From an uncultured Collinsella sp. (GTDB lineage Bacteria; Actinomycetota; Coriobacteriia; Coriobacteriales; Coriobacteriaceae), in assembly GCA_944321445.1 (NCBI GenBank), contig CALULJ010000007.1, forward strand, positions 1 to 64,000: a DNA stretch of 64,000 nucleotides. The letters run 5' to 3'. Every line of letters begins with the position of its first letter. Position 1 is the stretch's first letter. Below the pieces are notes generated by a model. It worked only from the letters and a program-made list of their open reading frames with translations, did no database searches and had not been told where the DNA came from. Positions 338 to 43,664 of the stretch are shown piece by piece. Made by a program: the position numbers and the translations under genes.

Positions 338-355
338 ATTCAAGTAGACTTGAAT
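338..355. promoter_or_regulatory. 18-bp palindrome upstream of the GlfT2-like gene
   Basis: TTCAAGT-AG-ACTTGAA forms a perfect 7-2-7 inverted repeat at 339-354, extended by an A/T pair on each side. It lies about 45 bp upstream of the chosen start of the next gene and could be an operator. No regulator can be named and no clear -35/-10 pair was recognised. Confidence 0.35.
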
Positions 356-397
356 AGATTCATTAGGTATATGTGCGATGCAACGAGGAGTTGTCAC

Positions 398-2242
398 ATG
401 TCTACGGTCGATTATAAACTTGCAAATGTTCTCCTGCGGGTAGACGACCATGCGGCGCTCCATCCCGAGCTTTACTATCGTGCTGCTGCTTCTGTGGCAA
501 CATTTGATGAAGACGCCAGGGCTCTGTCCTTTGCCGGCCCGGTAGACTTCTTCACCTATCTCAACGCTTGCTCGGCGAAAAAGTGGTCCCAATACGCGGG
601 GATTGATACCGTCTGGTTGCATGTAAAGGTAATGGGCGAGGGCGAAATCATCGTCGAGGGCGTTGCGAGCGACGGGTCGGATCGTCGTGAGCTATCGCGT
701 CATGTTTTCGCTTCTCAAGATGAATTCACCGTTGTCGATATCGAGATTTCGACGGCAGGGGAGGACCTTGTTGGTTTTACGGTGGTTCCCGCAGAGGGCG
801 GGTCTGCGCAGGTCTCACGTGCGTGGTGGTATACGAAGGTCGATGCGGGCTGTATCAATCCGGTTCGCCTCGCCATTGCGACGACTACCTTCAAAAAGGA
901 AGCCTACATCACTGCAAATATCGATTTGGTGCAAGAGGCGGTGCGCGCCGAGGGAGCGCCCATCATGGGCAACTTCCATATGTTCGTTGTCGATAACGGT
1001 CAAACGCTCGACGCCAAAGCGCTGAGCGATGATTTGGTCACCGTGATTCCCAACCCCAATGTGGGCGGATCCGGTGGTTTTGCGCGCGGTATGATGGCGG
1101 CCACTGAGGTGCCGGGTGCGTACACGCATGTGCTCGTCATGGACGATGACGTGCGCATCGTGGCCGAGAGCCTCATTCGGACGTTCAACCTGCTGTCCTT
1201 GGCGCAAGGGAAGTACCGCTCCGCCTACATCAACGGTGCGATGCTTTCGCTCGAAGAGCCTACGCGTCAGTTCGAAGACATTTCGTACGTTGTGAACTCG
1301 GGTGTTTACCGTCGTGTCAAACCGGATCTTAATGTTGGGCTGCTCGAAGATATCGTTGAGAACGAGCGCATCGACGTCGAGGTCCCGAGTGCCTATGGCG
1401 CTTGGTGGTTCAGCTGCATACCCACGGCGGACGTTGAGCGTAACGGCCTCCCCATGCCGTTTTTCATCCGTTGTGACGACGTTGAATTCGGCATGCGCAA
1501 CGACCCCACCTACATGACTATGAACGGTATCTGCGTGTGGCATGAGAGCTTCGAGGGCAGGTATCGCGCTTCGGTTGATTGCTATCAGTACACACGTAAC
1601 TTCCTGGCGATGATTGCTGTTGACGATTGCGCATCGGAGTCACTGTTTATCGTGCGCCTCGTTCGCAGCGTGCGCCAGTCTCTGCGCGAGCTCGATTACG
1701 TCTCTGCCGAGTTTTTGCTCGACGGCCTCGATGACTATCTCAAGGGCCCCGGCTATCTTGCGAGGCTGGATGGCTCTGCGCTCATGCAGGCGAACGGAAA
1801 GCGTAACGAGAAGGTCGTACCGGTTGAGGAAATGGATCCTGGCGTTTTGCGTGCTGCTGGGGTGACGCCCGAGGTGCTTGCGAACACGAGCCTCGACTTC
1901 CATTACTCACCCTTCATGAAGTACTGGCGCTCGGTGCCCTACGACAAGCATTACATGCCCAAGCCGTTCTTGGGCCATCGTGCAGGGTACGTCGTTAAGA
2001 ACGGAACGTGCTCGCTCGAGGGGAATACGACCGGCTGCGAGACGGTCGTCTATCTGGATCCCACACGCAAGAAGGGTGCGATCCGTCACATGGACCGTGC
2101 ACGGTTCCGCGCCATTCGTATCCGTGAGCACGAACTTATGCGTCGGTATCGTTCGGAGGGCAAGCGCGTTCGCCAGGCGTGGAAGGATGCGCTTCCTCGG
2201 CTGACGTCTCGTGAGTTTTGGACCGAGTATCTGGGGCTGTAA
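398..2242 (+). CDS. GlfT2-like galactofuranosyltransferase (GT2 family)
   Basis: This 614-residue protein resembles GlfT2-type enzymes that transfer galactofuranose from UDP-Galf to growing galactan at the membrane. An N-terminal beta-rich domain (about 1-165) precedes a GT-A fold. The metal-binding triad Asp249-Asp250-Asp251 sits in VMDDDVRI, the likely catalytic base Asp361 in FIRCDDVEFGMR, and the metal-ligand His382 in VWHESFEGRY. These three blocks occur in the order and spacing known for mycobacterial GlfT2. The ATG at 398 is chosen because a GAGGAG ribosome site at 385-390 precedes it with good spacing; the frame could begin at 350 but without such a site. The context of glycosyltransferases supports a wall or capsule galactan role. 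The acceptor is not known. Confidence 0.8.
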   Translation: MSTVDYKLANVLLRVDDHAALHPELYYRAAASVATFDEDARALSFAGPVDFFTYLNACSAKKWSQYAGIDTVWLHVKVMGEGEIIVEGVASDGSDRRELSRHVFASQDEFTVVDIEISTAGEDLVGFTVVPAEGGSAQVSRAWWYTKVDAGCINPVRLAIATTTFKKEAYITANIDLVQEAVRAEGAPIMGNFHMFVVDNGQTLDAKALSDDLVTVIPNPNVGGSGGFARGMMAATEVPGAYTHVLVMDDDVRIVAESLIRTFNLLSLAQGKYRSAYINGAMLSLEEPTRQFEDISYVVNSGVYRRVKPDLNVGLLEDIVENERIDVEVPSAYGAWWFSCIPTADVERNGLPMPFFIRCDDVEFGMRNDPTYMTMNGICVWHESFEGRYRASVDCYQYTRNFLAMIAVDDCASESLFIVRLVRSVRQSLRELDYVSAEFLLDGLDDYLKGPGYLARLDGSALMQANGKRNEKVVPVEEMDPGVLRAAGVTPEVLANTSLDFHYSPFMKYWRSVPYDKHYMPKPFLGHRAGYVVKNGTCSLEGNTTGCETVVYLDPTRKKGAIRHMDRARFRAIRIREHELMRRYRSEGKRVRQAWKDALPRLTSREFWTEYLGL

Positions 2243-2245
2243 TGC

Positions 2246-2273
2246 AATGGGCGCTCCTCGCGGAGCGCCCATG
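2246..2273. terminator. Hairpin between convergent GlfT2-like gene and tRNA-Arg
   Basis: An 11-bp perfect stem (ATGGGCGCTCC with GGAGCGCCCAT) closes a 4-nt loop. It lies between a plus-strand gene and a minus-strand tRNA and has no clear T-run on either side. It is a plausible bidirectional terminator. Confidence 0.5.
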
Positions 2274-2283
2274 GTGGATGCGT

Positions 2284-2360
2284 TGGTGCGCCATGTCGGA
2301 TTCGAACCAACGACCTTGGGATTAGAAGTCCCCTGCTCTATCCAACTGAGCTAATGGCGC
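2284..2360 (-). tRNA. tRNA-Arg (anticodon TCT)
   Basis: The minus strand folds into a cloverleaf. The acceptor stem GCGCCAT (2354-2360) pairs with ATGGCGC (2288-2294), the anticodon loop is CTTCTAA with TCT as anticodon, the T-loop is TTCGAAT, the discriminator base is A, and CCA is encoded at 2284-2286. The length is 77 nt. It reads AGA codons, which are rare in a high-GC genome. Confidence 0.95.
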
Positions 2361-2397
2361 GCTATGAGTACTGTGATATTCTACATGCTGCGTCGCT

Positions 2398-4056
2398 ATG
2401 AGCCATGAAGAATCTGGTGATGATTTGTTGCAATCAGTCGCGCACTGCGCTCATCGAGTTACGGAACATCCTTTGCGCATTCGCAAGGCCTCTTGCATAG
2501 TGCTTGCAATTATCCTCTGCGTGCAGCTGGCGGTCTGCTCTTGGTTTGCAGTGCATAAGCTTGGATTATTTCAAGATGAATCGTATACGTTTTTCCTCGC
2601 CAACGGTGACTGGTTGAACGCGGTTCCCGAAGAAGGCGTTATCTATAAGCAGGGTGATCCCTGGGGGGAATGGGCATCGGTTGACAGCTTTCTTGGCGTT
2701 GATTTTGAGATGCTCTACAAGAATCAGGCCTCTGACAACCATCCGCCGCTTTACTATACTTTGTTCTCTTTAGCATATTCCCTATTTCCCGGTTCGGTAA
2801 ATCCAATCATTGGCGTTGGACTCAATATCGTGTTCGCTCTCATCACGACAATCGAGCTCTACTTTTTGGGAAAAATACTTGGACTTCCGAAGTCGGCAGG
2901 GCTGCTTGTCTGTGGCCTTTGGGCTGTTAACCCGGGCATGATCAATTGCATGCTGTATCTACGCATGTATCAGCTGCTCGCCGTGTTCTTCTTGGGCTCT
3001 GCACTTGCAGCGCTTTCCTTTTTGAAATCCGAGCGCATTCATCTGGGGAATGTACTTGCAGTTTTCCTCACGACTGTTGGCGGCTTTCTGACTCAGTATT
3101 TCTTCGTCTTCTTTGCCTTCGTTCTATATCTGTGTGTTGGGATAACTCTGCTCGCACGCCGTCGCGTGGGTAACGCCGCCCTGTTTGCGGTGAGTGGAAT
3201 TGGAGGAGTGGCTGCCGGGATACTGCTCTTCCCCCCGAGCATCGACCATCTGTTCTCGAGTTTTCGTGGCCAGGAGGCTTTAGAGCGCGCCGCCTCGGGT
3301 GATTCGTTTGGTGCCTATCTCGTTGAGGACTTCAGGTTGCTAAATTCAGGCGTTTTCGGTTATTTGCTTCCTTTCGTCCTGGTGCTTGCACTCTGCTTTG
3401 CGCTGGTCGCTGTCTTTCGCAACAGAGCGTCCGCGATGATAGAGTCAGAGCACCTTGCGCCCGTTGCCTATGAGAGCTCTGGAATATGGTGGCTCGGTGT
3501 TGCCATCCTTGCCATCTCGTCTCTGTTTTACATTGTTATTGTCGCTCGTGTTGCTCCGTATGCTTCCATTCGGTATCTCATGGCAGTAAATGCCGTGCTT
3601 ATGGTATGGCCATACGCCTGCGTATTGGGCGCTCTGCGCTACTTGCTTCCCAAAAAGCGCGTTGTCGCTCTTGGGGTTATAGCGGTTCTCGGAGTTGCTG
3701 CGACGGAGAACGGTTATATGCAGGGAATCAAATATTTTTATCAGCAGAATGATTCTATTGCAGAGCTTGCGCAACGCAATGGAGCCATGGTTGCCCTTTG
3801 GGGAGATAAGCTTCTCCAAGAAGCGATTTTCCAAGATGCCATGAACTACGACAAGTCGGTGTACTTCTCAGATATCGATTCGTTTGGCTCGTTTGAGTTT
3901 GAGTCACTAGGACATGATTTTTCCCTTTATGTTCAGCATTGGATGGATGTTGACCCGTATATAGAACTGCTTGAGAGCCAGTGGGGAGCACGCGTAACGT
4001 ACGTAGGCGATAACGTCGATAGCAGCTATGCGGTTTATGACGTGCATATCGACTGA
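2398..4056 (+). CDS. GT-C-type polytopic membrane glycosyltransferase-like protein
   Basis: The 552-residue product has about 10-12 hydrophobic segments. It carries the acidic pair Asp60-Glu61 in LFQDESYTFF, directly after the first membrane segment, as in GT-C enzymes (PMT, ArnT, GT83) that use lipid-phosphate-linked sugars. NHPPLYYTLF and YLRMYQLL are further features common in that fold. It probably transfers a sugar from a polyprenyl-phosphate donor to an extracytoplasmic glycan or protein, and the polyprenyl-phosphate sugar synthase-like gene just downstream could make that donor. No convincing ribosome site precedes the ATG at 2398, so the start may be slightly wrong. Donor and acceptor cannot be read from sequence. 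Confidence 0.65.
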   Translation: MSHEESGDDLLQSVAHCAHRVTEHPLRIRKASCIVLAIILCVQLAVCSWFAVHKLGLFQDESYTFFLANGDWLNAVPEEGVIYKQGDPWGEWASVDSFLGVDFEMLYKNQASDNHPPLYYTLFSLAYSLFPGSVNPIIGVGLNIVFALITTIELYFLGKILGLPKSAGLLVCGLWAVNPGMINCMLYLRMYQLLAVFFLGSALAALSFLKSERIHLGNVLAVFLTTVGGFLTQYFFVFFAFVLYLCVGITLLARRRVGNAALFAVSGIGGVAAGILLFPPSIDHLFSSFRGQEALERAASGDSFGAYLVEDFRLLNSGVFGYLLPFVLVLALCFALVAVFRNRASAMIESEHLAPVAYESSGIWWLGVAILAISSLFYIVIVARVAPYASIRYLMAVNAVLMVWPYACVLGALRYLLPKKRVVALGVIAVLGVAATENGYMQGIKYFYQQNDSIAELAQRNGAMVALWGDKLLQEAIFQDAMNYDKSVYFSDIDSFGSFEFESLGHDFSLYVQHWMDVDPYIELLESQWGARVTYVGDNVDSSYAVYDVHID

Positions 4057-4120
4057 ACCTTGTTCTGGTCTACAATAGCCTAATCTGAGTGCATTGCGTT
4101 TATGGAGGGGGCTTCGTGCC

Positions 4121-5137
4121 ATGCCGTTGCCAAGACTGTGCATAGTCGTACCGTGCTACAACGAGCAGGACGTGCTCCCGATCACCGCCCCGCTTTTCGT
4201 CCAAGAGCTTGTCGATCTTGAGGAGAAGGGAAAGATTTCCCCGCAGAGCTGCGTGCTGCTTGTTAATGACGGCAGCGCTGATGGCACATGGGGCATCATC
4301 GAGGATCTTTCCAAGAGCGATGCACGCATTCAGGGTGTTTCGCTCTCACGCAATCGTGGCCATCAGTATGCGCTTTTGGCGGGATACACGGTTGCATGCC
4401 AGGTTGCTGACATCGCGATCAGCATCGATTGCGACGGCCAGGATGACATCACGGCGATGGAGCGCATGGTTGACGCCTATATGCAGGGGAATGACATTGT
4501 GTATGGTGTTCGCTCCGATCGCTCGAGCGATTCCGCCTTCAAGCGCGGGTCTGCGGAACTGTTCTACCGTATCCAGCATGCTATGGGCATCGAGAGCGAG
4601 TTCAACCATGCCGACTATCGCCTTATGTCGCGCCGTGCGCTCTCAGCGCTTCTCAAGTATCACGAGGCAAATGTTTTCCTTCGTGGCTTGATACCCCTGG
4701 TCGGGTTTTCTTCGACAACCGTCGAGTATGTGCGTCATGAGCGCATGGCGGGGGAGAGCCACTATCCGTTCCGGAAGATGCTCGCCTTTGCTCTAGATGG
4801 GATTACCAGCTTTTCTATTCAGCCCATTCGCTTCATCACGTTCTTCGGAATCATTGCTTCGCTTCTTAGCTTTGTAGGCATGATCTGGGCGTTCGTGAAC
4901 GCGTTGCTGGGCAACACGGTGTCCGGCTGGGCCAGTCTTGCGTGCCTCGTGTGCTTCATGGGCGGCATTCAGCTTATGAGCTTGGGGATTATCGGGGAAT
5001 ACGTTGGGAAAACCTACCTTGAGACCAAGCGCCGGCCGCGTTTCTTCATAGAAAAGATGACGCCGCGGCTGCGTGGGGAGCAGCGTGCGGCGTCTGGCTC
5101 TGTCACTTCTGATGGCGCTTCTACGAAGCGTGACTAG
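4121..5137 (+). CDS. Polyprenyl-phosphate glycosyltransferase (DPM1/GtrB-like)
   Basis: This 338-residue protein has an N-terminal GT2 domain that begins LCIVVPCYNEQ, with a VNDGSADGTW nucleotide-sugar motif and an acidic SIDCDGQDD metal site. Two hydrophobic segments follow at about 235-300, ending before a basic tail. This is the architecture of dolichol- or undecaprenyl-phosphate sugar synthases such as GtrB. It likely loads a hexose onto undecaprenyl phosphate on the cytoplasmic face for a GT-C enzyme like its upstream neighbour. The ATG at 4121 is chosen because GGAGGGGG (4104-4111) is correctly spaced. Its stop codon shares a CTAG tetranucleotide with the stop of the convergent pyruvyltransferase gene. 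Confidence 0.82.
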   Translation: MPLPRLCIVVPCYNEQDVLPITAPLFVQELVDLEEKGKISPQSCVLLVNDGSADGTWGIIEDLSKSDARIQGVSLSRNRGHQYALLAGYTVACQVADIAISIDCDGQDDITAMERMVDAYMQGNDIVYGVRSDRSSDSAFKRGSAELFYRIQHAMGIESEFNHADYRLMSRRALSALLKYHEANVFLRGLIPLVGFSSTTVEYVRHERMAGESHYPFRKMLAFALDGITSFSIQPIRFITFFGIIASLLSFVGMIWAFVNALLGNTVSGWASLACLVCFMGGIQLMSLGIIGEYVGKTYLETKRRPRFFIEKMTPRLRGEQRAASGSVTSDGASTKRD

Positions 5138-6762
5138 CGGTCTTTGATCCGTTTAAGAGCGCGCGGTAGAGCCGTAACGAACGATCCGACATGCCAGGTG
5201 GTCGAAGCACGGACGCGCTCGATTTCCGCTTGGGCGGTGTCGCGCTCGGCACGTGTGCGTTCGAGTTCGGCTTCCACGTCGTGCAGGCGCTCCTCTTCGA
5301 TCGAGACCGTTCTTGCATAAAAGATGCGACGGCGATAGGGTTGTGGGCTAGCGCTGCGCACAATGCGCTCGAACGCATCGAACGCTTCCACGGCTTGTGA
5401 GCGATTGGTCGAAGCGCGCAGATTGATGGACGCGATGTCCGCCTCTCTGTGCTTCTCCATGAGCGCGAAGGCGTCCGCGATTCGTTCGGATTCGCTGTCG
5501 AGCGGCAGAAGGTATTGCTCGCGATTCATTTGCTCGTAGTATGCCGCAATCTTCTCGTTGTAATCGAGCCCGAGAGAGGGAACCCCGCACGTATTGGCGA
5601 CAATCGAGGCATGAAGTCTCATGGCGATAACCGCATGCGATTGAGCGAGAAGGTCGACGACTGCGGCGGTATCGATTCCCGGATCGATGATGCATGTTCG
5701 GCATGCGGAATCCAGTTGGTCGATAACGGCGGAGTGCATGGCATGATCTTCGGGCGCAAGATCGATAAACGCAAGGGTAAGCTCGCGCGACAAGGCGATG
5801 CGTTCCAGTGCGGATGCGAGTTTTTGCACAAACCCTTCGGGAACAAGGCGGTGCTCACGCAGCGTAATCGCAATGTAAGAGCCGGCTTCCATGTCGTGCT
5901 TTGCGAGTAGAAGATCCGCAGCGCCGCAGACGCTTTCGCGTTCGATTGAGAACGCAAGGTCGACTTTACGGTCGATGCTGCTGGTGGGGACTCCTGCGCG
6001 GAGCAATAGGCGTTCCGTCTCGGAGTCGCGTGGGATGTAGTAGGCACCATTGCGTGCCTCGAGGTTAACAAGCGCCTGGGCATCTGGGTTTTCAAGCGGG
6101 CCTGCGCCGATTCCCAGGTACACGCTTGGAATGTTGTACAGCGCGGCGAGTAGCGTAAAGGCAAGCTGGCCGCCGATTTCAGAACGTGGGTTGAGCATGA
6201 AATCAATGGGTCCGGCGGTCCATTCCATAGGGTCGTCGAACATGATGCCCGCCATGTACACAAGAGCGCTCGCTCCGCGCAGCATGATGTCCGCCTCCAT
6301 CTTTTGGTCGCAGGTAATGGAGACCACGCCATGGCGCGCGAGTGCAGATGCGGGATTATGGCCGATGAGTTGGATATGCGCTCCGGGGAACCGACGTTCA
6401 ATCTGGCGGCAGATAAGCGAGAAGATGAGCTCATCGCCGAAGTTGTTGGGACCTACGTAACCAAATATCACGAAGCGTTGAGCAGGGGAATCCGTACCGG
6501 CATCAGACTGCTGCAGATTGTTTAGGATCGTTTGGGCATCCTCGGTGCCGGTGGTAAGGTAATCGGGCTTAAACCGCTCAAGGAATGGGGCAAGGGTCTT
6601 TTGGTTCGGCTTTCCCGCCTCATCTATAATGTTGGGAAAGCGTCGGGGGTCCAGGAGCTCTACGCAGTGTCCGGCTAATCGAAGGTCTTCGAAGCACCGC
6701 CATACCGGGTTGTCTTCGTGGTACTCGATTGGTGCGATGATTGCGATTCGATAGTGTTTCAC
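5134..6762 (-). CDS. Polysaccharide pyruvyltransferase with C-terminal STTW tail
   Basis: The 542-residue protein starts at a GTG at 6760-6762 preceded by AAAGGGAG. Residues about 95-440 match the polysaccharide pyruvyl transferase family (CsaB-like). They contain FGYVGPNNFGDELI, a GIGAGPL segment, and the late SHAVIAMRLHASI block typical of this fold. Family members add a ketal-linked pyruvate from phosphoenolpyruvate to wall or capsule glycans. After the catalytic domain comes a charged coiled coil (about 475-520) and a terminal STTWHVG...PRALK block that recurs in the divergent glycosyltransferase. An upstream in-frame extension to 7599 exists but runs antisense through the neighbour and is rejected. 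Confidence 0.8.
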   Translation of the reverse strand: MKHYRIAIIAPIEYHEDNPVWRCFEDLRLAGHCVELLDPRRFPNIIDEAGKPNQKTLAPFLERFKPDYLTTGTEDAQTILNNLQQSDAGTDSPAQRFVIFGYVGPNNFGDELIFSLICRQIERRFPGAHIQLIGHNPASALARHGVVSITCDQKMEADIMLRGASALVYMAGIMFDDPMEWTAGPIDFMLNPRSEIGGQLAFTLLAALYNIPSVYLGIGAGPLENPDAQALVNLEARNGAYYIPRDSETERLLLRAGVPTSSIDRKVDLAFSIERESVCGAADLLLAKHDMEAGSYIAITLREHRLVPEGFVQKLASALERIALSRELTLAFIDLAPEDHAMHSAVIDQLDSACRTCIIDPGIDTAAVVDLLAQSHAVIAMRLHASIVANTCGVPSLGLDYNEKIAAYYEQMNREQYLLPLDSESERIADAFALMEKHREADIASINLRASTNRSQAVEAFDAFERIVRSASPQPYRRRIFYARTVSIEEERLHDVEAELERTRAERDTAQAEIERVRASTTWHVGSFVTALPRALKRIKDR

Positions 6763-6816: not shown

Positions 6817-8553
6817 ATGCGCCTTTCCATCGTCGTTCCCATGTTTAATGCAGAACGTTTCATTGCCGACTGCATCGAGACGATTCACAACCAGGGGCTT
6901 CAGCAAAACGAGTACGAGATTATCGCTATCGATGACGGTTCGACTGATTCCACCCCGCAGCTGTGTGACCGCTACGCCGCGCAGCTTTCGAATTTCCGCG
7001 TATACCACCAGCGTAACGCCGGTGCTGGGGCGGCTCGGAATCGCGGTATCGATCTGGCGAAGGGCGATTATCTTTATTTCTTCGACGTCGATGACGGCCT
7101 GAAGGAAGGAACGCTGAGGCGCCTGCTTGATCAGTGCGAAGAGGAGTCCCTTGACGTACTGTTCTTCGGAGCAGAGGTTTTGTATGAGTTCGAGGAATGC
7201 AAGAAGCGCTATCCGCAGGATCCTCGCTATTTTGAGCGTCGGCAGAAGTCCGGCGTGGTCACAGGCGAGCAGATGTTCATCGCCCAGCAGAATGACTGGA
7301 ACTTCTGCGGCCAGCCTTGCATGCTCATCTCGCGCCTTCGCACGGTGCATAAGTCTCGCGCGCGTTTCGCCGAAGGCATTATGAATGAGGATAACTTTTA
7401 TGTCATTCGCGTGACGCTTCACGCCGAGCGCGCCAACGTCATTCCCGAGCTGCTCTACGAATACTATGTGAGGCCCAATACCGTTACCACGAGCCATGTG
7501 GGCGACGGACAGGTGTTTCTCTCCCATCTCGTACTGACGCGGGAATTCGAGAAGGAGCGCCTCCGCGCCATCGCGGCGGGGAAGGTCGACCTTGCGCATG
7601 GGCTTGAGGCGCTATCCAATTGGTTCATGGATGTTGCGATCGACAACTGCCCCGAGGGCGTCGAGCAGTTCACGCCGTTTCTTGACGGCAGGTTCGCATC
7701 CGTATCGCTTACGGGCCGCTTTGCGTGGCGCGCTCACCACGAAAAGAAGCATGCGGAGTATGAGGAGTGGCGTGCATACGAGGCGTATCAGCAGCTGAAG
7801 GCGATGGGAGAGCGCGCGGACTCCTTGGAGGAGCGTGCGAATCGCGAGGAGCATCGTGCTGTGGTCGCAGAAAAGCGCGCCCAAAAGGCTGAATCGCGTA
7901 TTGCGGTTATGGAGGCGTCGACGACGTGGAAAGTGGGCAGGGTCATCACAGCGGTCCCTCGCGCTATCAAAGACCTGGCCTGGCGGCTCAAGCCCAATCG
8001 TGACCATGCGCTTCAGGAGGCTTCGGAGGCCGAGGCGGCCATCCCGATGACTTCCGAAGACGAGCCGTCCGATTCTGTGGCCAGCGACCAGCCCGCCCAA
8101 TCGGACTTCGTTCCCGCGAGCCATGTCTTTGTCGCCCAGGATTTGTCCTCGCGCGATGAGGTGCTGCGCTTCATCTCTGCCAAGGCGGTCGAGCTCGGTT
8201 CGGCAACCAATGAAGAGGAGCTGCTCCAAGCGTTCTTGCGCCGCGAGGCGGAAGGTACGACGGGCATGATGGAGGGCTTTGCCATCCCGCATGCGAAGTC
8301 TTCGACTGTGCAGGAGGCCTCTGCGTATGTGGTCAAGCTTGCTCACGGTGCAGACGACTGGGAGACTATGGACACGGCAAGCGTTACCGTGGTCATAGGC
8401 TTGCTCATTCCCGAGAGCAAGGCGGGTACCGAGCACCTGAAGCTGCTCTCTAAGATCGCCGAAGCGCTTATGGACGATGATTTTCGAGCAGAGATCCGCG
8501 CGACCGACGATGCGGAGGCTATCGCTCGGGCGACCAACGCCCGTCTTGTATGA
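6817..8553 (+). CDS. GT2 glycosyltransferase fused to a PTS EIIA (fructose/mannitol-type) domain
   Basis: The 578-residue product has three parts. Residues 1 to about 230 are a GT2 domain: MRLSIVVPMFNAE, IAIDDGSTD, the acidic FFDVDDG site and a MNEDNFY block. About 300-385 is a charged coiled coil that ends in STTWKVG...PRAIK. After an acidic, Pro/Ser-rich linker, residues about 435-578 match the PTS EIIA type-2 fold, with the phospho-acceptor candidate His492 in FAIPHAKS and a second conserved His540 in EHLKLLSK. EIIA normally receives phosphate from HPr, and ptsH and ptsI follow directly. The ATG at 6817 has GAGG eight bases upstream. A GT-EIIA fusion is unusual; the EIIA half could regulate the transferase or supply a sugar permease. 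Confidence 0.85.
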   Translation: MRLSIVVPMFNAERFIADCIETIHNQGLQQNEYEIIAIDDGSTDSTPQLCDRYAAQLSNFRVYHQRNAGAGAARNRGIDLAKGDYLYFFDVDDGLKEGTLRRLLDQCEEESLDVLFFGAEVLYEFEECKKRYPQDPRYFERRQKSGVVTGEQMFIAQQNDWNFCGQPCMLISRLRTVHKSRARFAEGIMNEDNFYVIRVTLHAERANVIPELLYEYYVRPNTVTTSHVGDGQVFLSHLVLTREFEKERLRAIAAGKVDLAHGLEALSNWFMDVAIDNCPEGVEQFTPFLDGRFASVSLTGRFAWRAHHEKKHAEYEEWRAYEAYQQLKAMGERADSLEERANREEHRAVVAEKRAQKAESRIAVMEASTTWKVGRVITAVPRAIKDLAWRLKPNRDHALQEASEAEAAIPMTSEDEPSDSVASDQPAQSDFVPASHVFVAQDLSSRDEVLRFISAKAVELGSATNEEELLQAFLRREAEGTTGMMEGFAIPHAKSSTVQEASAYVVKLAHGADDWETMDTASVTVVIGLLIPESKAGTEHLKLLSKIAEALMDDDFRAEIRATDDAEAIARATNARLV

Positions 8554-8734
8554 TGGGTCGCTGCGTTTTGCGCGCGTAGGCCGGGTGTGCTTCGCGCGTG
8601 TCCGTTCCGTCACGTTCCATTTCGCTCCGCTCGCCCGTTTTGTGCGTAAATCGGCTCGTGTTGCGTTACACTATCCTCGTACTTTGGTGCGCCTCATGTC
8701 ACTTGGCGCGCTCAGATCACAAAGGAGTAAAAGT

Positions 8735-8998
8735 ATGGTTTCTGAGAAGGCTACCCTCATCAACCCCCAGGGTCTGCACATGCGTCCGGCCGGTCTGTTC
8801 GCCTCCACCATGGGCAAGTACGCTTGCGACGTCACGATCGTGACCGCCGACAAGGAGGTCAACGGCAAGAGCCCCATGGCCCTCATGGCTGCTGGCATCC
8901 CCTGCGGCACCGAGGTTGAGGTCCGCTGCGACGGCGCCGACGAGGCCGAGGCCCTGGCTGCTGCTCTCGACCTCATCAAGAGCGGTCTGGGCGAGTAA
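8735..8998 (+). CDS. ptsH: HPr, phosphocarrier protein of the PTS
   Basis: This 87-residue protein relays phosphate from enzyme I to EIIA domains. The active His15 lies in NPQGLHMRPAG, with Met in place of the usual Ala after it. Ser46 in NGKSPMALMAAG is in the position of the regulatory serine phosphorylated by HPr kinase in Gram-positive bacteria. AAAGGAG precedes the ATG at 8735. A terminator lies between it and ptsI, so HPr may be made in excess of enzyme I. The GT-EIIA gene immediately upstream is an obvious phosphate acceptor. Confidence 0.96.
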   Translation: MVSEKATLINPQGLHMRPAGLFASTMGKYACDVTIVTADKEVNGKSPMALMAAGIPCGTEVEVRCDGADEAEALAAALDLIKSGLGE

Positions 8999-9124: not shown

Positions 9125-10834
9125 ATGTCTATGTACGAGGGAGTCAACGCGTCTGAGGGCATCGGTATCGGTACCGTGACCGTCGCGGTCGATCCTGACC
9201 TGTCCTTCACGCCGCATGATGTTGAGGACGTCGAGGCCGAGCAGGCTCGCTACAAGGCCGCGCTCGACGTGTTCTGCGATAAGACCGCCGCTATGGCCGA
9301 GCACATGAAGGAGAGCGTCGGCGAGGCCGAGGCCGAGATCATGAGCGGCCATATCATGCTTGCGCAGGATCCGGAGCTCACCAACTCCATCAACGCTGCC
9401 ATTGCGGGCGGCACGTGCGCCGAGCAGGCCCTCGTGGAGACCAGCACCATGTTCGAGAACATGTTCCTCTCCATGGACGACGAGATGTTCCGCCTGCGTG
9501 CCGCCGATATCGCCGATATCCGCACCGGCATTCTGGCTGAGCTTCTGGGCCGTGAGGTCGTCGACCTCTCTGTTCTGCCCGCCGGCACGGTCATCGTTAT
9601 CCATGACCTCACGCCGTCGATGACCGCGACGATCGACAAGAAGAACGTTGCCGGTATCGTCACCGAGGTCGGCGGCCGCACTTCGCATTCCGCCATCATC
9701 GCGCGTGCTCTCGAGATTCCCGCGGTCCTGTCCGTCTCCAACGCGTGCGGTGCTCTCCACAACGGCATGACCGCCATCGTTGACGGTTCCAAGGGCGTTG
9801 TGGTGTCCGAGCCCGACGAGGAGACGCTCGCCGACTACACGAAGCGTCGCGAGGAGTTCGTGGCCGAGAAGCAGGCGCTCGAGGCGTTCCGCGGCAAGCC
9901 GACCATCACGGCCGATGGCTATAAGAAGATCATGGCGTGCAACATCGGCAACCCCGATGACGTCAAGGGCGCGCTCGAGCACGATGCCGAGGCTATCGGC
10001 CTGTTCCGCTCCGAGTTCCTCTTCATGGACGCCAAGTCTCTGCCCTCCGAGGAGGAGCAGTTCGACGCGTATCGCAAGGTCGCTGTTGCCCTGAAGGGAA
10101 ATCCGGTCATCATCCGTACGCTCGACGTGGGCGGCGACAAGGAGATTCCGTATCTCAAGCTCGTGAAGGAAGAGAACCCCTTCATGGGTTACCGCGCCAT
10201 CCGCTACTGCCTCGATAACCCCGATGAGTACAAGGTCCAGCTCCGCGCCCTGCTGCGTGCGAGCGCGTTCGGCGACATCAAGATTATGGTTCCCATGGTC
10301 ACCTGCGTCGAGGAGATCCGTGCCGTCAAGGAGCTCGTCGAGGTCTGCAAGGCCGAGCTGCGCGAAGAGGGCTACAAGTTCAACGAGGACATCGAGGTCG
10401 GCATCATGACCGAGACCGCTGCCTCCGCGAACATCCCCGACCTTTTGGCCAAGGAAGCCGACTTCTTCTCCATCGGTACCAACGACCTCACCGGCTATAC
10501 CATGGCGTCCGACCGTGGCAACGACAAGGTCGCCTACCTTTACAGCTGGTACTATCCGGCGGTGCTGCGCGCAATCAAGAACATCATCGAGGCCGGTGTC
10601 AAGGAGGGCATCATGGTCGGTATGTGCGGCGAGGCCGCTGCCGATCCGTTGCTCACGCCGCTGCTGATCGCGTGGGGCATGGAAGAGTTCTCCACCTCTG
10701 CGCCGAGCATCCTGCGTACGCGCAAGGCCATCTCCGAGTGGACGGTCGATGAGGCCAAGGAGCTCGCCGACAAGGCGCTCGAGTGCGCGACTGCCGAAGA
10801 GGTCAAGGCCCTGCTTGAAGCCGCTGCAAAGTAA
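9125..10834 (+). CDS. ptsI: PTS enzyme I (phosphoenolpyruvate-protein phosphotransferase)
   Basis: The 569-residue enzyme autophosphorylates from PEP and passes phosphate to HPr. The active His188 is in GGRTSHSAIIAR. The PEP-binding domain has TLDVGGDKE, FFSIGTNDLTGYTMASDRGND, and the catalytic Cys501 in VGMCGEAAAD. The block GIMTETAASAN keeps the conserved Glu but has Ala where most enzymes have Pro, and YSWYYPAVL is divergent; the key residues are otherwise intact. GGAGAGGAAG precedes the ATG. It lies downstream of ptsH, separated by a terminator. Confidence 0.96.
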   Translation: MSMYEGVNASEGIGIGTVTVAVDPDLSFTPHDVEDVEAEQARYKAALDVFCDKTAAMAEHMKESVGEAEAEIMSGHIMLAQDPELTNSINAAIAGGTCAEQALVETSTMFENMFLSMDDEMFRLRAADIADIRTGILAELLGREVVDLSVLPAGTVIVIHDLTPSMTATIDKKNVAGIVTEVGGRTSHSAIIARALEIPAVLSVSNACGALHNGMTAIVDGSKGVVVSEPDEETLADYTKRREEFVAEKQALEAFRGKPTITADGYKKIMACNIGNPDDVKGALEHDAEAIGLFRSEFLFMDAKSLPSEEEQFDAYRKVAVALKGNPVIIRTLDVGGDKEIPYLKLVKEENPFMGYRAIRYCLDNPDEYKVQLRALLRASAFGDIKIMVPMVTCVEEIRAVKELVEVCKAELREEGYKFNEDIEVGIMTETAASANIPDLLAKEADFFSIGTNDLTGYTMASDRGNDKVAYLYSWYYPAVLRAIKNIIEAGVKEGIMVGMCGEAAADPLLTPLLIAWGMEEFSTSAPSILRTRKAISEWTVDEAKELADKALECATAEEVKALLEAAAK

Positions 10835-10921: not shown

Positions 10922-10942
10922 TACTTGGAAAGGGGAGATTCC

Positions 10943-11875
10943 ATGTTCTATACGCTTACCGCTAACCCTGCCGTCGACATGACCGTGACGTGCCCCCCGT
11001 TGATTCCCAACGAGAACATTCGCTCGGTCACTGCGAGCTATACGCCCAACGGTAAGGGTCTCGACGTGTCCTTCGCTTTGAAGAAGTTCGGCGTCGACTC
11101 CGTTGCCCTGGGCTTTTTTGCCGGCTTCACGGGCAAGTACATCGTCGACGAGACCATGAACATGGGTTGCCTGTGCCGTCCTGTGTGGATCGACGGCATC
11201 ACGCGCATCAATTCGTATTTCAACGATGGTGAGAACGAGTACGGCATCCTGAACGCCGGCGCACCGCTGACTCCCGAGGGCGAGCGCGAGCTCTATCGCA
11301 TTCTTGACACCACCGGTGACCTTGAGTGCCTCATCATCTCCGGTTCGCTGCCTCCGAAGGCTTCCCGCTACTTCCTGGATGAGGTCATCGACCACGCCCA
11401 GGATCGCGGCGCCGATGTCATCCTCGACCTCTCCAGCGATCGCCTGAAGAAGCTTGCCGATAAGAAGCCGCTGCTCATCAAGCCGAATCACCACGAGATG
11501 AAGGCTATCTTCGGTGTCCCCGTGGATACGGATGACGAGGTCCGCGTCGCTATGAAGATGGCGCACGACATCGGTGTTCAGAACGTCCTGCTCACCCGCG
11601 GCAGCCGTGGCGACGCCTATTTCTCCAACGGTGAGGACATCTGGTATGCTCGCCGCGAGTTCAACATTAATCTCGTGTCCTCGGTGTGCGCCGGCGACTG
11701 CACCCTCGCTGCGTTTATCCTCAAGTGGTACCACAACCGCGAGAACGTCGAGGAGGCCCTGCGTCTTGCGCTGGCCACCGGCGCGAACGTCGCCGAGAGC
11801 GTTGGCCTGGGCGACTTCGGTCGTGTCGAGGAGTACAGCCACCGCATCGCGGTGCGCAAACTTGAGCGCCAGTAA
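10943..11875 (+). CDS. PfkB-family kinase, probably 1-phosphofructokinase
   Basis: This 310-residue protein matches the 1-phosphofructokinase/tagatose-6-phosphate kinase branch of the PfkB sugar kinases, which phosphorylate a ketohexose phosphate with ATP. It starts MFYTLTANPAVDMTV, has NGKGLDVSFALKKFG in the substrate-binding region, IISGSLPP, and the late ATP/anion-hole motif. That last motif reads Cys249-Ala-Gly-Asp252-Cys253 where the family usually has GAGDS; the catalytic Asp252 is retained. The ATG at 10943 follows AAAGGGGA. Its position after ptsI fits fructose-1-phosphate use, but no fructose EIIBC is in the window, so the substrate is inferred. Confidence 0.75.
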   Translation: MFYTLTANPAVDMTVTCPPLIPNENIRSVTASYTPNGKGLDVSFALKKFGVDSVALGFFAGFTGKYIVDETMNMGCLCRPVWIDGITRINSYFNDGENEYGILNAGAPLTPEGERELYRILDTTGDLECLIISGSLPPKASRYFLDEVIDHAQDRGADVILDLSSDRLKKLADKKPLLIKPNHHEMKAIFGVPVDTDDEVRVAMKMAHDIGVQNVLLTRGSRGDAYFSNGEDIWYARREFNINLVSSVCAGDCTLAAFILKWYHNRENVEEALRLALATGANVAESVGLGDFGRVEEYSHRIAVRKLERQ

Positions 11876-11937: not shown

Positions 11938-11940
11938 CTT

Positions 11941-12150
11941 TGTCCTCTCTTGGGACGGGGGTGCCAGAGGACAAAATGTCTCCTTTTGGGACAGGCCTGC
12001 TGTGGAATTCATCGCGTTTCGTATTGTACCGATAATCGCAATATGAGATGTATACGAGGTCTGTCCCATAAGAGGACAAAATGTCTCCAACGACCCCCGT
12101 TCCCAGAGGAGACAAAATGTCCCCCGGCACCCCCGTCCCCGGAGGGGACA
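11941..12150. repeat. MITE-like element with 25-bp terminal inverted repeats
   Basis: The left end 11941-11965 and the inverted right end 12126-12150 match at 22 of 25 positions. They begin TGTCC and contain GGGACGGGGGTGCC. Inside are three copies of GACAAAATGTC (11970-11980, 12075-12085, 12111-12121) and inverted copies of GGGACAGG, around a unique AT-richer core (about 12001-12055). There is no coding capacity for a transposase. It sits directly after the pfkB-type terminator and ends about 48 bp before the next start codon, so it may contribute promoter sequence: a TATACT -10-like box lies at 12157-12162. Confidence 0.7.
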
Positions 12151-43608: not shown

Positions 43609-43664
43609 GGCCTGTCCCGGGAGGGGACAAAATGTCTCCTGGCACCCCCGTCCCCAGAGAGGAC
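43609..43664. repeat. GACAAAATGTC/GGGGACGG repeat unit, inverted
   Basis: CCTGTCCCGGGAGG, then GGGGACAAAATGTCTCC, then GGCACCCCCGTCCCC, and an end AGAGAGGACA repeat the right half of the 11941-12150 element. Confidence 0.7.

Follow-up and report, generated by a model that had tools for sequence, protein, structure and literature searches.

A glycosyltransferase (GT) of family GT2 and a PTS EIIA domain are joined in one real gene, so far in one genome, in the 64,000-nucleotide stretch of uncultured Collinsella DNA that was analysed (the window). The fused state is known from one assembly. Taken as a whole, our explanation is that an orphaned, probably still phosphorylatable EIIA was tethered by a deletion to a predicted active GT, and we give it a probability of roughly 0.68. 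The EIIA of the fusion would be the retained C-terminal domain of the ancestral FruA of the genus (EIIB-EIIC-EIIA), encoded before ptsH-ptsI. In the lineage concerned, fructose uptake would have been taken over by a second, off-locus FruA of the order EIIA-EIIB-EIIC, and the pts locus would have lost EIIC and then EIIB, with EIIA retained. A deletion in this species then probably took the GT stop codon, the intergenic DNA and the EIIB remnant, bringing EIIA in frame at the natural end of the GT2 protein. Today's product would most likely be a working GT, flexibly tethered to an EIIA that accepts phosphate from HPr, the phosphorylation being suggested by the retained His residues and the fold. 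The initial annotation of this DNA had correctly recognised the fusion, the domain names and the His residues, while its proposal of permease subunits elsewhere was not supported and the origin from a permease remnant was missed.

The fusion gene (6817..8553, + strand) was characterised by translation and with Pfam and TIGRFAM profiles. As annotated initially, GT2 and type-2 EIIA share one continuous frame, with 578 uninterrupted codons and a single stop at the end, and Pfam places both domains far over cut-off, Glycos_transf_2 at residues 4-119 (E 9e-31) and PTS_EIIA_2 at residues 432-570 (E 9e-31). The GT2 catalytic core (6826..7173, +; PF00535, 107.5 bits) is accompanied by the motifs DDGS (39-42), DxDD (90-93) and Glu191-Asp192, the ED of NEDN. 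The GTs of two same-genus genomes (G036 and G039), to which this half is 55% identical, carry the same DDGS/DxDD/NEDN motifs; no GT equivalog profile reached its cut-off for the GT half. The EIIA domain (8110..8526, +) scores 107.2 bits against PF00359 (cut-off 27) and, with 109.7 bits against TIGR00848 for fructose IIA (cut-off 103.5), is of the fructose type. Its identity to EIIAs from dozens of same-genus genomes is 46-58%. Both family His residues are found exactly at their annotated positions, the predicted phospho-acceptor His492 in GFAIPHA (codon 8290..8292, +) and the second family residue His540 in GTEHLKLL (codon 8434..8436, +), and both residues are conserved in the lineage. Since each half has homologues in the same genus, the open stretch at 6817-8553 is no chance frame. 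With the His pair and the GT motifs in place, both halves look functional as far as their residues tell, and HPr would be expected to phosphorylate His492.

An AlphaFold2 model from a shallow alignment gave a pLDDT >90 for the EIIA domain and a poorly modelled GT core. In a Foldseek comparison the EIIA model matched EIIA-Ntr (2a0j, TMt 0.88) and E. coli IIA-Mtl (1a3a, TMt 0.79), and by this prediction the half has an EIIA fold. The model further contains a long helix at residues 298-377 and a disordered stretch at residues 371-427 (pLDDT <50). Together with the ends of unfused GTs, the helix delimits a long helix or coiled coil with the GT C-terminal tail (residues 298-391, 7708..7989, +), which ends in ASTTWKVGRVITAVPRAIKDLAWRLK. 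The linker at the fusion point follows at residues 392-430 (7990..8106, +) and is predicted to be disordered. Within this linker an in-frame ATG at residue 411 precedes the complete EIIA and has a GGAGG upstream, which could mean that EIIA is also made separately from Met411, so that the two domains, though joined in the genome, would not always be joined in the protein. As 17 nt separate the end of the GGAGG core from the ATG, beyond the usual spacing, and a nearer GAGG is weak, such an internal start seems rather improbable.

Less credible still is an assembly or sequencing artefact at the join, or a read-through of the GT frame into an EIIA pseudogene. The assembly (G000) is admittedly a draft in 84 contigs and the fusion was not found in a second genome, but completeness is 97% with 0.01% contamination, GC and GC3 are alike along the whole gene, and the EIIA is complete with its catalytic residues. 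The join itself is stop-free and in frame, and it lies at the natural GT end and the FruA inter-domain linker.

The origin of the EIIA half is indicated by its locus, which was compared among 45 same-genus species-level genomes, together with a whole-protein search of 150 relatives. In this search the EIIA half was matched in nearly all same-genus genomes, mostly as the end of a ~670-residue protein; these proteins are fructose permeases of the order EIIB-EIIC-EIIA. The gene order X - ptsH - ptsI - fruK - (second fruK) - cca is conserved, and X is a full FruA (B-C-A) in most genomes, including G001 (frame-split), G013, G021, G025, G026, G031 and G046, as well as at many loci of the C. aerofaciens group. 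The G001 gene (L079 6713-8904) consists of two overlapping frames of 332 and 672 aa and represents either a frameshift or early permease decay.

By an Enzyme I tree, in which it nests among genomes with a detached EIIA (99-100% support at the relevant forks), this genome belongs to the Collinsella tanakaei/ihumii lineage. The lineage of eight genomes was taken as Collinsella tanakaei (ET10, ET30, An368, An791), C. ihumii, Ca. C. stercoripullorum and uncultured Collinsella. Here X is reduced, either to an EIIB remnant and EIIA without EIIC (G036 with a 270-aa frame, G039 with 299 and G017 with 389 aa) or to EIIA with short N-terminal scraps (G012, G015, G022 and G023); reduced forms also occur in the separately placed genomes G020 and G034. 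The active-site Cys is missing from the EIIB remnants, which read TGHPTG instead of TGCPTG in G036 and G039 and have no such motif at all in G017. Between G036 and G039 the remnants share 62% identity, compared with 89% for attached EIIBs, and their dN/dS of 0.30 against ~0.07 for attached EIIBs indicates relaxed constraint. At the G034 locus the final membrane helix of EIIC (MELGVAIAVIIGLAIGGVLVVSF) has stayed with the detached EIIA (L076 5180-5884), which is therefore probably membrane-anchored. Collinsella sp. An2 (G045), which the Enzyme I tree places beside the lineage as its sister, has a detached EIIA at the pts locus as well (L065 6998-7642), and no fructose-type EIIC over cut-off was found anywhere in this 99% complete genome.

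All eight lineage genomes contain one other high-scoring FruA, off-locus and in the order A-B-C (TIGR01427, 368-376 bits); in the present genome it lies on contig 3 alongside a fruK-like gene. Its presence in the entire lineage suggests that fructose uptake was taken over by this second permease, and that the B and C domains at the pts locus then decayed. EIIA is kept in 8/8 lineage genomes, with its two His residues and the pocket around them, and every EIIA of the lineage, attached or detached, has both family His residues. The detached EIIAs gave low dN/dS values of 0.015/0.208 (0.07) for G022-G023 and 0.157/1.118 (0.14) for G036-G039; in pairs with this genome dS is near saturation, and selection before and after the fusion is not separable. 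Constraint seems partly relaxed, as branches are longer for detached EIIAs than for attached ones, and EIIA is not indispensable, given that it is gone from the pts locus, with ptsHI intact, in several Collinsella/Enorma. The EIIA tree by itself is poorly resolved, so that the case for common origin with the FruA EIIA is built on locus position and on domain remnants. On these grounds it is very likely that the EIIA descends from a FruA remnant, after a handover to the second FruA and loss of EIIC and EIIB.

How EIIA came to be attached to a GT can be read from G036 and G039, the only genomes of the same-genus set, besides the present one, in which a GT orthologue was found. In both, the GT is a separate gene ending with ASTTWRVGRAVTAVPRALKR, and the gene after it, in the same orientation, encodes the EIIB remnant and EIIA. 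The G036 GT terminates in ASTTWRVGRAVTAVPRALKRMIAR directly before its stop, matching the tail end of the fused GT. The unfused GTs end at the very point where the linker starts in the fusion, and the linker is without counterpart there, while the fused protein continues from the equivalent tail through ~40 linker residues into EIIA. From these unfused neighbours we infer that a deletion in all likelihood joined EIIA to the natural end of the adjoining GT2, in junction DNA that is too diverged from G036 and G039 for the ends of the deletion to be placed exactly.

The fused state is present in one of the 45 same-genus genomes. Among the matches listed for the 150 relatives, no single frame spans both the GT and the EIIA half, and such a frame would outscore either half alone in that search. 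None of 72,556 plasmid records gave a match covering 80% of the fusion protein, the viral contigs gave no match to it, no relative of the GT half was found in the named genome collection, and no EIIA-glycosyltransferase fusion was found in the papers searched. Long-frame EIIA matches in other genera (343-793 aa) were considered as further fusions and rejected as frame artefacts, caused by high-GC DNA before EIIAs of ~150 aa. With regard to conservation among relatives, the initial annotation had named restriction to one assembly as an argument against its reading; this is largely what was found, with fusion only here and separate genes in G036 and G039.

It had also been suggested that the EIIA half serves a permease with its other subunits encoded elsewhere, for which we found no support. 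Neither the fusion gene nor its locus contains EIIB or EIIC, and no orphan fructose-type EIIBC was found on this genome's contigs. The type-2 EIIAs of the genome are the fusion EIIA, that of the complete FruA and three tails of PRD regulators, and the sole fructose permease is the complete A-B-C FruA, which carries its own EIIA. With no dedicated transport partner found, the simplest inference is a role as an orphan, a regulator or a buffer. The domain may be a passenger or a phosphate sink or sensor, and chances are about even that EIIA, lacking a dedicated EIIB, would if active serve as an orphan or regulatory phospho-acceptor by which the GT is not necessarily controlled.

An EIIA with the GT as mere carrier might nevertheless act in trans as phosphate donor for an EIIB encoded elsewhere, be it of the A-B-C FruA, of a PRD regulator or the GatB-like EIIB on contig 54. 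EIIA domains are able to work with EIIBs other than their cognate ones, and the genome does have an EIIB without EIIA or EIIC. In B. subtilis, EIIA domains artificially fused to the unrelated TkmA remain functional and still donate phosphate (PMC6148471), which supports a live tethered EIIA in our fusion. We regard donation in trans as unlikely, however, as the fructose permease is self-sufficient in EIIA and the Lac-type EIIB/EIIC operons found in this genome adjoin regulators or Lac-type EIIA. Moreover, G022 keeps its detached EIIA though its only two PF02302 EIIBs, in a FruA and an MtlA-like EIICBA, each have an EIIA of their own, and the fructose-family EIIA of B. subtilis ManP did not rescue glucose-family permeases (PMC6148471). 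The GatB-like EIIB is an orphan (L056 3937-4386, G000:C54) in a genome in which no EIIC-GAT was found. G012 has a similar protein (L190), and weak, partial matches of the same kind to PF02302 were seen in G017, G036, G039 and G045.

A different possibility is that EIIA is a true regulatory domain, with PTS phosphorylation altering the activity or location of the GT and so tying surface polysaccharide to carbon supply. EIIA phosphorylation is low while PTS sugar uptake is rapid, and other bacteria have EIIA-type proteins that bind enzymes and control them; PtsN in its phosphorylated form, for instance, inhibits GlmS, the supplier of polysaccharide precursors (PMC13104625). The His pair and fold are kept on the same chain as an apparently intact GT2, and EIIA persists in all eight clade genomes despite the loss of permease parts. 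This retention, however, long predates the fusion and hence cannot be explained by control of the GT. The GTs of G036 and G039 are complete at the C-terminus without EIIA, the fusion occurs in only 1/45 genomes, and the model shows a disordered tether with no sign of an interface, although its GT core is poorly modelled. A regulatory domain is thus a tentative alternative with low odds. Doubtful, too, is the specific version in which the recruited EIIA senses phosphorylation on the same chain and so switches a surface-polysaccharide GT with PTS sugar flux, and no described example of such switching of a glycosyltransferase was found in the papers searched.

Downstream, the fusion gene is followed by ptsH and ptsI, as originally reported. 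ptsH (8735..8998, +), identified by profiles and locus alignment, encodes an 87-aa HPr with the active site GLHMRPAG, and ptsI (9125..10834, +) encodes Enzyme I (TIGR01417, 611.6 bits). Next comes a PfkB/FruK-like kinase (10925..11875, +), over cut-off for TIGR03168 (240.5 bits) and, with 243 bits, under the cut-off of 292 for TIGR03828; it is kept after ptsI even in genomes without FruA there. The ptsH start lies 181 nt 3' of the fusion gene, and a joint transcript is putative. In the alignment of 16 loci, a block that is conserved throughout the genus ahead of ptsH (tgcgtTAcACTA...cgt; 8658..8680, +) falls into this gap and is probably ptsH's own promoter, though a sigma-70 consensus scan did not report it. 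Retention of EIIA only for the sake of ptsHI transcription is less likely, since ptsH has this conserved block of its own and some ptsHI loci are without EIIA. A dispersed repeat with the core GAGGACAAAATGTCYCC lies within longer inverted repeats at 11940-12150, in the fruK-cca gap, and also at 43623; genome-wide it has 52 sites at <=1 mismatch, and the reversed control gave 0.

On the other side lies a divergent CsaB-like pyruvyl transferase gene (5134..6700, -, 5' end approximate; PF04230), whose orthologues adjoin the unfused GT in both G036 and G039. The remainder of a surface-polysaccharide cluster (350..5137, +), assigned from the ORF list and profiles, comprises a GlfT2-like transferase (350-2242, +), a membrane protein (2398-4056, +) and a further GT2 (4094-5137, +). 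The fusion GT would presumably act in this adjoining cluster. Its C-terminus (7708-7989, +) and that of the pyruvyl transferase (5134-6700, -) have in common a coiled coil and the pattern ASTTWxVGxxxTAxPRAxK, with up to 62% identity between the two tails, in G039. A tail common to different enzymes of the cluster perhaps serves membrane or complex targeting.

Among known systems, the fusion resembles FruA (EIIBCA) of the fructose/mannitol PTS family in its homologous C-terminal EIIA, its TIGR00848 score over cut-off and the same place before ptsH-ptsI, but it has neither EIIB with its Cys nor EIIC, and a GT2 takes the N-terminus instead. With PtsN (EIIA-Ntr) it has the fold in common (2a0j, as above) and the absence of a dedicated EIIBC partner. 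Unlike PtsN, the fusion EIIA reaches just 69.8 bits with TIGR01419 (cut-off 138.7), is attached to a GT and lies beside sugar-type ptsH/ptsI, with no PtsP/PtsO partner or rpoN operon. EIIA tails also occur on PRD regulators of the MtlR/LicR type and on non-PTS permeases such as LacS. The PRD regulators, three of them in this genome, likewise carry an EIIA module on a protein not engaged in PTS transport. Such tails, however, belong to recurrent families with known partners, whereas the present case is singular and the partner is a polysaccharide enzyme. The GT2 structures 3bcv, GalT1 (5hea), TarS and RmlT match the fusion in the GT2 core and motifs, yet none carries an EIIA. EIIA modules on proteins outside transport are already known from the PRD regulators; a GT as the carrier was seen in one genome.

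The locus offers a stepwise series from the whole permease through an EIIB remnant with EIIA and EIIA alone to the GT-fused EIIA. The series shows that a PTS EIIA can persist after the rest of its transporter is gone and can end up captured by an enzyme unrelated to it, and the survival of EIIA beyond its permease bears on the origin of regulatory EIIAs such as PtsN. If the fused EIIA does control the GT, a gut commensal would have its surface polysaccharide synthesis coupled directly to PTS sugar flux.
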